Shown: piece after piece, positions 21,397 to 29,893 of the stretch
How positions within the stretch are numbered: position 1 is the stretch's first letter
Layout: every line of letters begins with the position of its first letter
Source of the DNA: Desulfovibrio sp.
GTDB lineage: Bacteria > Desulfobacterota > Desulfovibrionia > Desulfovibrionales > Desulfovibrionaceae
Reading direction: 5' to 3'
NCBI RefSeq assembly: GCF_009712225.1
Contig: NZ_WASP01000002.1
Span: forward strand, 1-64,000
DNA length: 64,000 bases
Translations under genes and position numbers: made by a program
The notes under the pieces: generated by a model
Seen by the model: the letters and a program-made list of their open reading frames with translations, nothing else
Told to the model about the DNA's origin: nothing
Databases searched by the model: none

Positions 21397-21951
21397 ATGC
21401 TTACCCCCAACCAGTGTGTGCTTTACAGCGGCGGCGCCGCTGGAACAGAACAGTTCTTCGGCGCTTTGGCCGAAAGCTGGGGTCTGGAAGAAGTAAATTA
21501 CAGCTTTGAAGGACACCAGATCGAACGCACGCGCGGTGTGCGGGTGCTCACTTCCGAAGAACTGGCCCTCAAGGATGTAAGTCTGACCTATGTTTCGCGG
21601 CTCATGAGCCGCGAATACACGCGCGCGCCTCTTTTCCGCAAGGTTTTGCAGTCCATCTGCTGGCAGGTCAGCAGTGGCGAGCAGATCATCGTTATCGGCG
21701 CTGTGCAGCCCGATGGCACAGTCAAGGGTGGCACCGGCTGGGGCGCAGAATTTGCCAAAATCTGCAACAAGCCCCTGCTTGTTTTTGATCAGCCCAAGAA
21801 TGCCTGGTTTTTCTGGGACAAAGATAAATGGACCCAGACAGACGAACCCCGCATCACCCATCCCCACTTTGCCGCCACCGGCACCCGTTTTCTTGAAGAC
21901 AATGGCCGTGTAGCCATTCAGGACCTTTTTGCGCGTTCTTTTTCGCGCTAG
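21397..21951 (+). CDS. Possible SLOG/Rossmann-like nucleotide-binding protein
   Basis: 184 residues, not firmly recognised. It opens with VLYSGGAAGTEQFFGALAESWGL, which resembles the glycine-rich first loop of SLOG-fold (YpsA/LOG-like) proteins. A second loop GGTGWGAEFAKICNKPLLVFDQPKNAWFFWD near residues 115-145 is also typical of nucleotide- or sugar-binding Rossmann folds. No signal peptide or membrane segment. GAGGAGG precedes the ATG. It stands alone between hairpins, so context gives no function. Alternatives are a phosphoribohydrolase-like enzyme or a molybdenum-carrier-like protein. Confidence 0.55.
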   Translation: MLTPNQCVLYSGGAAGTEQFFGALAESWGLEEVNYSFEGHQIERTRGVRVLTSEELALKDVSLTYVSRLMSREYTRAPLFRKVLQSICWQVSSGEQIIVIGAVQPDGTVKGGTGWGAEFAKICNKPLLVFDQPKNAWFFWDKDKWTQTDEPRITHPHFAATGTRFLEDNGRVAIQDLFARSFSR

Positions 21952-26769: not shown

Positions 26770-29424
26770 ATGGTTGCCCAGAACACCGCTGAAACCGATG
26801 AACAAATCATCGATCTCACAGAACTGATCGAAAAAGGCGAAGTTCCGGCAAACGATCCGTCCGAGCAATCCCGGGCCCATGCCGCTGCAGAGGCTGAAGC
26901 CGAAAAAGAAGAGCTTCAGGAACACCTGCGCGATCTTAACGATGGCTCCAACAAGGCCGATGCGGAGATTGACGACCTGCTGGCCCAGATGGACATCAAG
27001 GCCGATGGGCAGGAAGACCCAGAAGATGTGGCGCTGGATTTTTCCGCACCTTCCACGCAGACAGACCACCACATCGACCCCAACGAGCAGCTCAACATGC
27101 CCGGCATGGGTGATGTGGACAGCCTGCTGGATTCGCTGGACATTCCGCCACAGCCCTCTGACCGTGAGGCTGAAACAGCCTCGCCAGAAACTCCCGATCA
27201 GGCGGTGGATGCCCTGCTCAACGACTTCAACGCGCCCGCAGCGCCTGCCGTAGAACCCACCACGGCAGCAAACCATGATGCTCCGGATCTGGACGAGCTG
27301 CTGGCATCTGTTGGGGCTGCGCCGCAGCCTGACACCTCGAGCCCGATTGACGACCTGCTGAGCGCAGCCAGCCCGGCAGCAGCTCCTGCCGCCGCGCCGC
27401 AGACAGCGCTGTCCAACGACGACCTCGACAGCCTGCTTGAGGCTGCCACGGGTGGCCAGAGCGGTGCGCCAAGCCCCATACAGACGGCGGAGCCCGCTCC
27501 CAGACCTGCAGCTGCGCCGCAACCGGCCCCCAGCACGAGCATGGATGTTGATATCGACAGCCTGCTGGCTGCAGCGGCCAATGACATGCAGCAAGGCACT
27601 GATCTGGAACAGCCCGCAGCCGCGCCCGCACCCCAGCCTGTTGCGCCTGCAGCACCTGTTGCAGCGCCCACTGCCACGCCAGCCGATATGGGTGTTGACA
27701 TCGACAGCCTGCTGGCTGCCGCCGCCAATGACCTGCAACAGAATATTGATGCCCCCGAGCCTGCCGCCCAGGCGCCAGTTTCGGCGCCAGCCCCTGCTGC
27801 GGCACCTGCCAAGACCACGCCAGCTCCCGCTGTTTCAAACGACGATCTGGATAGCCTGCTGGCTGCCGCAACGGCCGGACTTGAAACGGCCCCCAGCCCA
27901 GCCCCGGCGGAACCGGCAGCGCCCGCTGCTCCTGCCGACATGGACGTGGACATTGACAGCCTGCTGGCTGCTGCGACCAGCGATCTGGAGCAAACCCTTG
28001 ACACTGCCCAGTCAGCCGCCCCGGCCATGCCCGAGGCTGCGGCTGAACCTGTGGCCGAGCCAACACCTCAGCCCGACATGGGCATTGACATTGACAGCCT
28101 GCTGGCTGCGGTAGATGCCAGCGCCCCGGCCCCAGAGCCCGAAGCCGCGCCTGCAATGGCCGACCCCTTTGCCGAGGCTCAGGCAGCCGTGGCCGAAGCT
28201 GTTCCCGCGCAGCCGGAAACCGAACTTTTGCCCCAAACGGAAGACATGCCGCAGCCAGAGCTTGCGGCTGACGCCCAGCCCGAAGTGGTGGATATTTTGC
28301 CGGAAGAACAGACCCCGGAAGTGGCTGCAGTTGCAGCAGAAGAACCGGCAGAGGAACTGGCGGAAGAACCCGTGGCAGAAACCGCCGCAGACATCGAAGC
28401 CCTTATGGCAGCCGCCTCTGGTGATGTTCTTTCCGCCGAAGGCTCAGCAGATCAGGATATTCCCGCCGACTCGGCTGACGACCTGCTGGCGGCCATGTCT
28501 GCCGATCTTTCCGAACGGCCCGATGCAGACCTGAAGGCCGAACCCGTTTCTGACGTCATGCCCGACATGGTAGACGGTCTGCTCGTTGCGGAACCGGCAG
28601 AAGAACCGGTTGCCGAGCATGTTATGGACTTGCTTGCCAACCCCGCCACCGAATTTGTCGAAGAACCGGGTGCCGAAACTGCCGCTATCGCTGTCGCAGA
28701 CGACATGCTGCCCGAAATTCCTGAATTCGAAACCTCTCCAGCGGCTCTTGAAGCCCAGCAGCTGGACGATACCGACCCCACCGGGCTGGAATCGCAGGCC
28801 GCGCTGAACGCAACCCTTGCAGCTGTTTCAGCAGAGGCTCTTGATGCCGTGATGGCTCAGGCTAACGAGGCCTCTTCACATGCGCTCGATGCCTTCGCAC
28901 AGGCCTTTGACGCCTCCAACCGTGCGGCAGACGCCGCAGAAGCCGTAAGCAGCCTTGCCGTGCGCGTTGAGCAGTGCGAAAGGGCGCTGCATGAGGCAGG
29001 CGAACGCATCATAGCGCTTGAAACCGCTCTGGAGTCACAGATTGCGGCCTCGCAGACCATGGCCGCAGCAGCCCTGCCCCGTCAGGAGCTGGAGGGCATG
29101 TTTATGGAAGGGCATCCCCTGCATCAAGGCCTCATGGAATGCATCAGCAAGGCCGTTGCCGAAGCTCTGGCCGCAGCCCCCGCGCTGGCCCATGCATCTG
29201 CGCTGTCCTCCGCACAGCCAGCTGCCGCAGACGTGCATGCACTGATAGACGAACGGCTGCAACCGGTCATTGCCGCAGAGCGCAGCGCCAATGCCCGCAT
29301 CGACGCCCTTGAAAGCCGTCTCGATGCCCTTGAACCCCGCTTTAACGACAGGGTGGAAAAGGCCGCGGCATCTGCGGCAGCCCGCATCCTGCGCGAAGAA
29401 ATCAGCCGCCTTCTTGAAGAATAG
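26770..29424 (+). CDS. Large acidic Ala/Pro-rich protein with ~15 D-x-D-x-LL motif repeats
   Basis: 884 residues, not recognised as a known enzyme, with no signal peptide or membrane helix. Residues 1-60 include IIDLTELIEKG and a charged helix. From about 64 to 625 it is disordered-looking, rich in Ala, Pro, Glu and Asp, and carries a recurring short motif: EIDDLLAQM (66), DVDSLLDSL (115), DLDELLASV (173), DIDSLLAAA (261, 310, 394, 440 and near-matches at 144, 193, 217, 358, 539, 567, 599, 617). Residues ~700-884 look helical and coiled-coil (VEQCERALHEAGERIIALE..., ANARIDALESRLDALE). A ribosome site GAGGTGG precedes the ATG. The motif recalls the FliM N-terminal and CheZ C-terminal peptides, but this is only a resemblance. 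Confidence 0.85.
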   Translation: MVAQNTAETDEQIIDLTELIEKGEVPANDPSEQSRAHAAAEAEAEKEELQEHLRDLNDGSNKADAEIDDLLAQMDIKADGQEDPEDVALDFSAPSTQTDHHIDPNEQLNMPGMGDVDSLLDSLDIPPQPSDREAETASPETPDQAVDALLNDFNAPAAPAVEPTTAANHDAPDLDELLASVGAAPQPDTSSPIDDLLSAASPAAAPAAAPQTALSNDDLDSLLEAATGGQSGAPSPIQTAEPAPRPAAAPQPAPSTSMDVDIDSLLAAAANDMQQGTDLEQPAAAPAPQPVAPAAPVAAPTATPADMGVDIDSLLAAAANDLQQNIDAPEPAAQAPVSAPAPAAAPAKTTPAPAVSNDDLDSLLAAATAGLETAPSPAPAEPAAPAAPADMDVDIDSLLAAATSDLEQTLDTAQSAAPAMPEAAAEPVAEPTPQPDMGIDIDSLLAAVDASAPAPEPEAAPAMADPFAEAQAAVAEAVPAQPETELLPQTEDMPQPELAADAQPEVVDILPEEQTPEVAAVAAEEPAEELAEEPVAETAADIEALMAAASGDVLSAEGSADQDIPADSADDLLAAMSADLSERPDADLKAEPVSDVMPDMVDGLLVAEPAEEPVAEHVMDLLANPATEFVEEPGAETAAIAVADDMLPEIPEFETSPAALEAQQLDDTDPTGLESQAALNATLAAVSAEALDAVMAQANEASSHALDAFAQAFDASNRAADAAEAVSSLAVRVEQCERALHEAGERIIALETALESQIAASQTMAAAALPRQELEGMFMEGHPLHQGLMECISKAVAEALAAAPALAHASALSSAQPAAADVHALIDERLQPVIAAERSANARIDALESRLDALEPRFNDRVEKAAASAAARILREEISRLLEE

Positions 29425-29518: not shown

Positions 29519-29690
29519 TTGCCAATGACAGGCGGAACGCATATGCTGTTGCGCGGTTTCGCGGGCGCTGTTCCGCGTTTCTCACTACTAAAAAAAGGGG
29601 CGGGGGCTGTTGCTTCCGTTTCTTAACCCGTCCAGGCAATACCCGCTGTGGGTCTTGGCCATTCCCCAAAGGGGCGGGTTTTCATTTTTG
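29519..29690 (+). ncRNA. Candidate small RNA: promoter, structured transcript and terminator
   Basis: TTGCCA at 29519 and TATGCT at 29542 with a 17-bp spacer form a fair promoter. The predicted transcript starts near 29553. It ends at a compound hairpin (ACCCGC at 29641 with GCGGGT at 29674, inner CCCC/GGGG) followed by TTTTCATTTTT. No family such as 6S, SRP or tmRNA was recognised. It could equally be the leader of the 56-residue gene at 29723. Confidence 0.35.
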
Positions 29691-29722
29691 CCGAGCCCTT
29701 AGGGCCGGAAGCTGAGGCTCAA

Positions 29723-29893
29723 ATGGATAAGGATCGCAAGGAAGCCTTGCAGGTTGCCAAGGAACTGACCGCTAAATTCATTGAAACGCGCACGGTTTCC
29801 CCCAGCAATTTTGCCGAGGTTTTTCCCTCGGTCTACCGGGTTGTCTGCGCCGCCATCGGCGTGGAGACAGACCAGGACAAGGGCGGAAAATAA
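29723..29893 (+). CDS. Small soluble protein of unknown function upstream of menG
   Basis: 56 residues, mixed charge and largely helical by eye (KDRKEALQVAKELTAKFIETRTVSPSNFAEVFPSVYRVVCAAIGV), no signal or membrane segment. GAGG lies ahead of the ATG. It is 1 nt from the GTG of the methyltransferase gene, so it is almost certainly co-translated with it. The preceding RNA can form a GAGCC/GGCTC stem that covers its ribosome site. Function not recognised. Confidence 0.7.
   Translation: MDKDRKEALQVAKELTAKFIETRTVSPSNFAEVFPSVYRVVCAAIGVETDQDKGGK

Follow-up and report, generated by a model that had tools for sequence, protein, structure and literature searches.

The window, by which we mean the whole stretch of 64,000 nucleotides that was analysed, contains a gene for a protein of 884 residues in which a short hydrophobic-D-x-L-L motif is repeated along a disordered region. 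The motif resembles the peptides of FliM and CheZ that dock on CheY. What does such an array serve, and is the resemblance meaningful? A sequence-only reading of the locus had proposed a multivalent scaffold or buffer for response regulators.

The motif array

The motif was counted as a strict core, [ILV]DxL[LF], and as a looser core, [ILVMF][DE]x[LIM][LFIM]; these patterns, and the two-core cut-off by which an array was called present, were chosen after the sequences had been seen. Residues 1-824 contain 12 strict cores, compared with a mean of 0.10 in 1000 shuffles, and 14 looser cores, compared with a mean of 0.72; 0/1000 shuffles reached 14. The sequence-only reading had counted about 15 D-x-D-x-LL-like repeats, which these numbers confirm. 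It had also placed a motif every 20-60 residues. The repeated spacing is there, but its measured range is wider, 19 to 101 residues, between the 13 looser cores of residues 1-660 (at 67, 116, 146, 174, 193, 219, 262, 311, 360, 395, 441, 542 and 601). An extra degenerate copy, ADDLL, is found at residue 569, and motif 1 reads AEIDDLLAQM in context. Ala makes up 24% and Asp 10% of the protein, and residues 24-640 have a pI of 4.05, with 129 D+E, 10 K+R and 37% A+P. The coordinates are given in Table 1.

Table 1. Features of the 884-residue protein and its gene in the window
Feature	Residues	Position	Strand	Remark
Gene (disordered motif array and coiled coil)	1-884	26770..29424	+	ATG start
Conserved N-terminal motif (QIIDLTELIEKG)	12-23	26803..26838	+	Retained also in array-less orthologues
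Motif 1, IDDLL then AQM	67-71	26968..26982	+	Near CheZ C-termini of the lineage
Motif 2, VDSLL then DSL	116-120	27115..27129	+	Inside conserved block VDPNE..MPGMGDVD.LL.SLDIP
Motif array, 13 looser cores	67-605	26968..28584	+	Acidic, Ala/Pro-rich, largely disordered
Predicted long helices (coiled coil)	670-883	28777..29418	+	AlphaFold2
Conserved C-terminal helix	860-883	29347..29418	+	Retained also in array-less orthologues

At the DNA level, the motif had 103 matches in the window's genome, compared with 89 for a reversed control. Nine of the matches listed are on the + strand, no more than 1.2 kb from the array gene, and no second cluster of three within 2 kb was found among the matches listed for this genome. 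We also considered a tandem amplification still visible in the DNA and rejected it; the one array returned by Tandem Repeats Finder, of 35 bases, is not the motif. The array gene is overlapped by minus-strand ORFs as long as 403 aa, and the one minus-strand frame that was read across it contains stops. Among orthologues, it is the + frame that is conserved.

Predicted structure

An AlphaFold2 model of the protein was built on an alignment of 15 orthologues. Its mean pLDDT is 54.3 and its pTM 0.26, and it is therefore readable for disorder and helix positions only. Most of the array lies below pLDDT 50. Helices are predicted at 11 of the 13 motifs, with motif 1 inside a longer helix (residues 35-79). 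Within residues 81-660, 10/12 motifs coincide with a predicted helix, compared with a helix cover of 0.23 (p 2e-5). Long helices follow at 670-768 and 819-883. Thus, composition and model agree with the acidic Ala/Pro-rich disordered region, followed by a coiled coil, that had been read from the sequence, as the model predicts a disordered array and then long C-terminal helices. No likely membrane span was found in the protein (highest 19-residue hydropathy, 1.27).

Orthologues

The window protein and six orthologues had no match at the curated cut-offs of Pfam and NCBIfam, so that no known family with another role was found by these cut-offs. At E up to 1, the sole Pfam match of the window protein was CLZ (E 0.86), and a search of solved structures gave one match (E 0.44). 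Orthologues share an N-terminal motif with the consensus IIDLTELIEKG and a C-terminal helix, EKAAAAAAARILREEIARLL. The family search profile, built from the last 60 residues, matched in 39/61 relatives and in 124/199 same-family genomes, with weak matches included on profile score alone. Start codons were assigned by hand. Fragments (G011, G012, G013, G015, G022, G023, G063, G210 and G224) were excluded from the counts. So were six complete proteins from close relatives, which served in the comparison of motif number among close relatives and, for three of them, in that of cores with linkers.

The number of repeats varies among homologues, from 0 to 20 looser cores per full-length orthologue. 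Close relatives G201, G128 and G100 have 12, 12 and 13, where the same count gives 14 for the window protein. In close-relative comparisons, identity was 0.87-0.95 in cores and 0.50-0.54 in linkers, whereas dN/dS showed no clear contrast (0.08-0.17 in cores, 0.15-0.20 in linkers with one value undefined). The core/linker contrast is weak evidence, because dN/dS is similar and the alignment was anchored by the motifs. Two orthologues stand out in length or repeat number. That of G024 (L044:8813-11791) has 20 looser cores and a long regular repeat of alternating DLDALLGEM and DLEALMSQM units. That of G014 (L081:2389-6450) is 1309 aa long and has a very long repetitive C-terminal half, with only 5 looser cores.

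Outside the family, six CheW-positive genomes from other families of the order have 1 to 4 looser cores, often of the type DLF, and for 4/6 of these proteins shuffling gives no clearly lower count (P 0.09 to 0.58). G038, which lacks CheW and lies outside the family, has kept one looser core. Motifs are thus few outside the family, and therefore the amplified array is a feature of this family.

Array, chemotaxis and flagellum

CheW (PF01584) was used as the chemotaxis marker, and an array was scored as present at two or more looser cores. CheW is present in 52/61 relatives and 176/199 family members. The CheW-negative side comprised 31 genomes, three of them (G237, G244 and G250) assigned by absence from the positive list; 25/31 gave a full protein, no profile match came from G009, G031, G066, G136 and G218, and a broken partial one from G231. 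The CheW-positive side covered a spread of genera and comprised 45 full proteins, 39 of them from the family and 6 from outside it.

Among the 63 full-length family orthologues, the array was present in 39/39 from CheW-positive and 1/24 from CheW-negative genomes (Fisher p 2.6e-16, with kinship ignored). Counted by strict cores, the figures are 35/39 and 1/24, and in genomes at least 90% complete, 32/32 and 0/18. The exception is G141, a genome 76% complete, which has no CheW, MCP or flagellin yet retains 2 strict and 4 looser cores. For some CheW-positive family members the looser count does not stand out clearly from shuffles (G014, P 0.09; G073, P 0.10). The CheW-negative orthologues kept the N-terminal motif in 23/24 cases and the C-terminal motif in 24/24. 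Therefore, these genomes retain the gene but not its array.

An RpoB tree covered 60/70 genomes. The minimum number of changes on this tree, in either direction, was 8 for CheW, 10 for the array and 9 for FliM. In 8 independent pairs differing in CheW, a comparison that takes kinship into account, the array changed in the same direction in 7.8 on average and never in the opposite one (sign test p 0.0078), and in near-complete genomes 6/6 independent pairs agreed (p 0.031). The absence of FliM and that of CheW track the array about equally well (8/9 independent pairs for FliM); FliM was scored as absent in G006 and G243, where its matches, above the curated cut-off, are weak (E about 1e-7). In CheW-negative genomes flagellin was found in 0/25 and some MCPs in 2/25. 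Thus flagellin and CheW are missing together, as are most MCPs and, as a rule, FliM, and therefore the array is tied to swimming and chemotaxis as a block. Genome reduction as the cause of array absence was not supported: genome size did not clearly differ between the CheW classes (median 2.6 vs 2.4 Mb, p 0.17), and G107 (1.7 Mb) has 8 cores whereas its tree neighbour G133 (3.6 Mb) has none.

Some genomes have an unusual gene complement. G036, which has FliM but no flagellin, MCP or CheW, was considered as a case separating motor from chemotaxis and was dropped because flagellin is absent. The weak FliM-domain matches of G006 (C1:2508881-2509363) and G243 occur in genomes with no flagellin, MCP or CheW match, and are perhaps C-ring proteins of type III secretion. 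MCPs in genomes with neither a CheW nor a flagellin match were seen at G161:C75:4462-7137 and G225:C3:905-1411.

Resemblance to FliM and CheZ peptides

CheZ C-terminal tails bind CheY. In the window's genome, FliM, whose gene lies elsewhere (contig C1), starts MNKVLAQDEVDALLRGL, and CheZ, a separate gene also on contig C1, ends GAIDDMLSQLGL. Motifs 1 and 2 of the array match both peptides of this lineage, the C-terminus of CheZ and the N-terminus of FliM. It has been described that the EIDALL motif of FliM/FliY binds CheY-P and that the FliM N-terminus occupies the alpha4/alpha5 groove (PMC9126983).

We also used a FliM/CheZ profile, independent of the motif patterns, which was trained only on 17 FliM N-termini and 8 CheZ tails (10 distinct peptides) and read at freely chosen cut-offs of 10, 12, 14 and 16. 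At cut-off 12, it found 61 sites in the 39 CheW-positive proteins (shuffles, 1.2) and 0 in the 24 CheW-negative ones. At least one site was present in 27/39 CheW-positive proteins and none in 12/39, and the rate in 35 other ORFs of the window was 0.07 per 1000 residues. At cut-off 10, there were 80 sites on the CheW-positive side (shuffles, 2.4) and 3 on the CheW-negative side (shuffles, 0.4); only 2 sites fell in the window protein, in which the DIDSLLAA copies share the core alone. The likeness to FliM and CheZ that had been noticed at first thus holds for the first two motifs and for the profile excess in CheW-positive orthologues, whereas the later motifs of the window protein match in the core only.

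CheW co-loss, tree pairs and FliM/CheZ profile sites agree. Therefore, the array is a module of motility/chemotaxis that sits on a core conserved in its own right, and it is absent together with swimming and chemotaxis.

Comparison with known systems

The FliM/FliY N-terminal peptide has the same hydrophobic-D-x-L-L core, with preceding acidic residues, and occurs with chemotaxis. Such a CheY-docking-like peptide is present in the window protein (12 strict cores). In FliM, however, the peptide belongs to a folded C-ring protein, whereas array proteins carry up to 20 copies in a disordered arm, and neither the FliM domain (PF02154) nor the CheZ domain (PF04344) was found in the window protein by Pfam at E up to 1. 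Compared with CheZ tails, motif 1 (IDDLLAQM) has two differences from IDDMLAQL of a relative's CheZ, and motif 2 has V-D-x-L-L-x-x-L in common with others of these tails.

PopZ has an N-terminal helix, an acidic proline-rich disordered middle and oligomerising C-terminal helices. From this description its layout is similar, with a disordered acidic middle and helical ends; no Pfam match to a PopZ-type C-terminal domain was obtained at E up to 1 for the window protein and six orthologues. HubP has a long, acidic, unstructured cytoplasmic region with acidic repeats that vary in number between close species, and a link to flagellum and chemotaxis (PMC12918733). The array protein is likewise acidic and disordered, with variable repeats, but differs from HubP/FimV in having no LysM or FimV/TPR domain (Pfam, NCBIfam) and no likely membrane span. 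CheO of Campylobacter is a polar accessory chemotaxis protein that touches signalling proteins and the rotor, and CheO-CheY binding was not confirmed by pull-down (PMC9665402). It differs in that no motif array figures in the part of its description drawn on here (PMC9665402).

A proposed docking hub for CheY and its alternatives

CheY docking is our best reading of the array. The link to CheY, at first a short likeness, now has strong but indirect support from an association that recurs in evolution. On sequence grounds, we put a probability of about 0.55 on a coiled-coil hub to which a disordered arm of FliM/CheZ-like peptides that dock CheY is added in swimmers. The core hub would be defined by the N-terminal IIDLTELIE motif and the conserved C-terminal helix, and in swimming species it would gain a disordered arm bearing many hydrophobic-D-x-L-L docking peptides. 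In the alpha4/alpha5 groove of CheY, each motif may become a short helix, and the motifs probably prefer CheY-P. One hub could hold several CheY molecules, and CheY-P would either be concentrated near the motor and the receptor array or be buffered. On a separate hub, the array could act for an entire pole.

The array might instead serve swimming through another partner, such as a C-ring protein, a polar flagellar GTPase or CheZ, its likeness to CheY peptides being convergence on an acidic amphipathic helix. We regard this as rather unlikely. Genomes without the array generally also lack flagellin, CheW, most MCPs and, as a rule, FliM, which fits such a partner too, and co-loss alone cannot name the partner because flagellum and chemotaxis genes disappear together; most motifs of the window protein, moreover, match FliM/CheZ in the core only. 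Against it, a profile built from FliM and CheZ alone finds sites in 27/39 CheW-positive and 0/24 CheW-negative proteins at cut-off 12.

Improbable in our view is a general hub at the pole or envelope, with a disordered arm that lengthens by repeat slippage and shrinks in non-swimmers through relaxed selection on the whole hub. It would fit the freely varying motif number, and 17/22 tabulated CheW-negative family members are indeed short (103-344 aa). But long CheW-negative proteins exist with 0 or 1 looser core (G030, 733 aa; G133, 479 aa; G016, 465 aa), both protein ends remain conserved, and close relatives keep their cores similar while linkers diverge. The small genome of the swimmer G107 has 8 cores, whereas the large non-swimmers G133 and G202 (3.5 Mb) are without the array. 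It had also been allowed that the resemblance is due to chance. In that case, a low-complexity sequence rich in D, L and A would yield DxLL strings through its composition. The Ala and Asp content invites this explanation, which can hardly be true: same-composition shuffles give 0.72 looser cores against 14 and refute a chance origin of the motifs in the window protein, and the excess is repeated in most CheW-positive orthologues.

If the CheY-docking reading is true, this lineage possesses a chemotaxis protein that binds CheY at many sites per chain, and its species, which naturally range from 0 to 20 sites, offer a ready-made series for how CheY-P buffering tunes the motor response. The role of the array as scaffold or buffer is a guess. 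It is possible, though we hold it only tentatively, that the array is a multivalent CheY-P sponge with 3 to 20 docking sites, whose fast-evolving number would set how much CheY-P is held near the motor. This would be an undescribed layer of chemotaxis control, gained and shed on a conserved coiled-coil core. In Pseudomonas, polar confinement of CheY-P is argued to avoid cross-talk (PMC12410967). By analogy, local CheY-P of this type could be one reason why such a hub would pay in the window's genome, which has 46 MCP matches. A description of such an array in the literature was not found among the matches listed. Loss of the array with chemotaxis, while the ends persist, suggests an undescribed part of the steering system. 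It is also a clean evolutionary pattern, a client-docking arm present on or absent from a hub with conserved ends.

Gene neighbourhood

The array gene is surrounded by genes of haem, cobalamin and menaquinone metabolism and not by che genes, which counts against the CheY-docking reading. From its gene content, the host is probably a Desulfovibrio or a close relation of that genus. Recurring neighbours are hemL, cbiG, cbiH, cytochrome c3, ubiE, a phosphorylase-family gene, polyprenyl synthase and purL-like genes, and their recurrence extends in part to other families of the order. Pfam matches of the genes in the window support these names; the exact identities beyond the Pfam match, and purL altogether, are presumptive. 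Between the array gene and ubiE lies a small ORF (29648-29893, + strand; MDKDRKEALQVAKELTAKF...), whose product matches ORFs adjacent to the gene in L035 and L046. Pfam gave no match at E 1e-5 for a 184-aa ORF (21397-21951, + strand), which in relatives recurs close to hemL.
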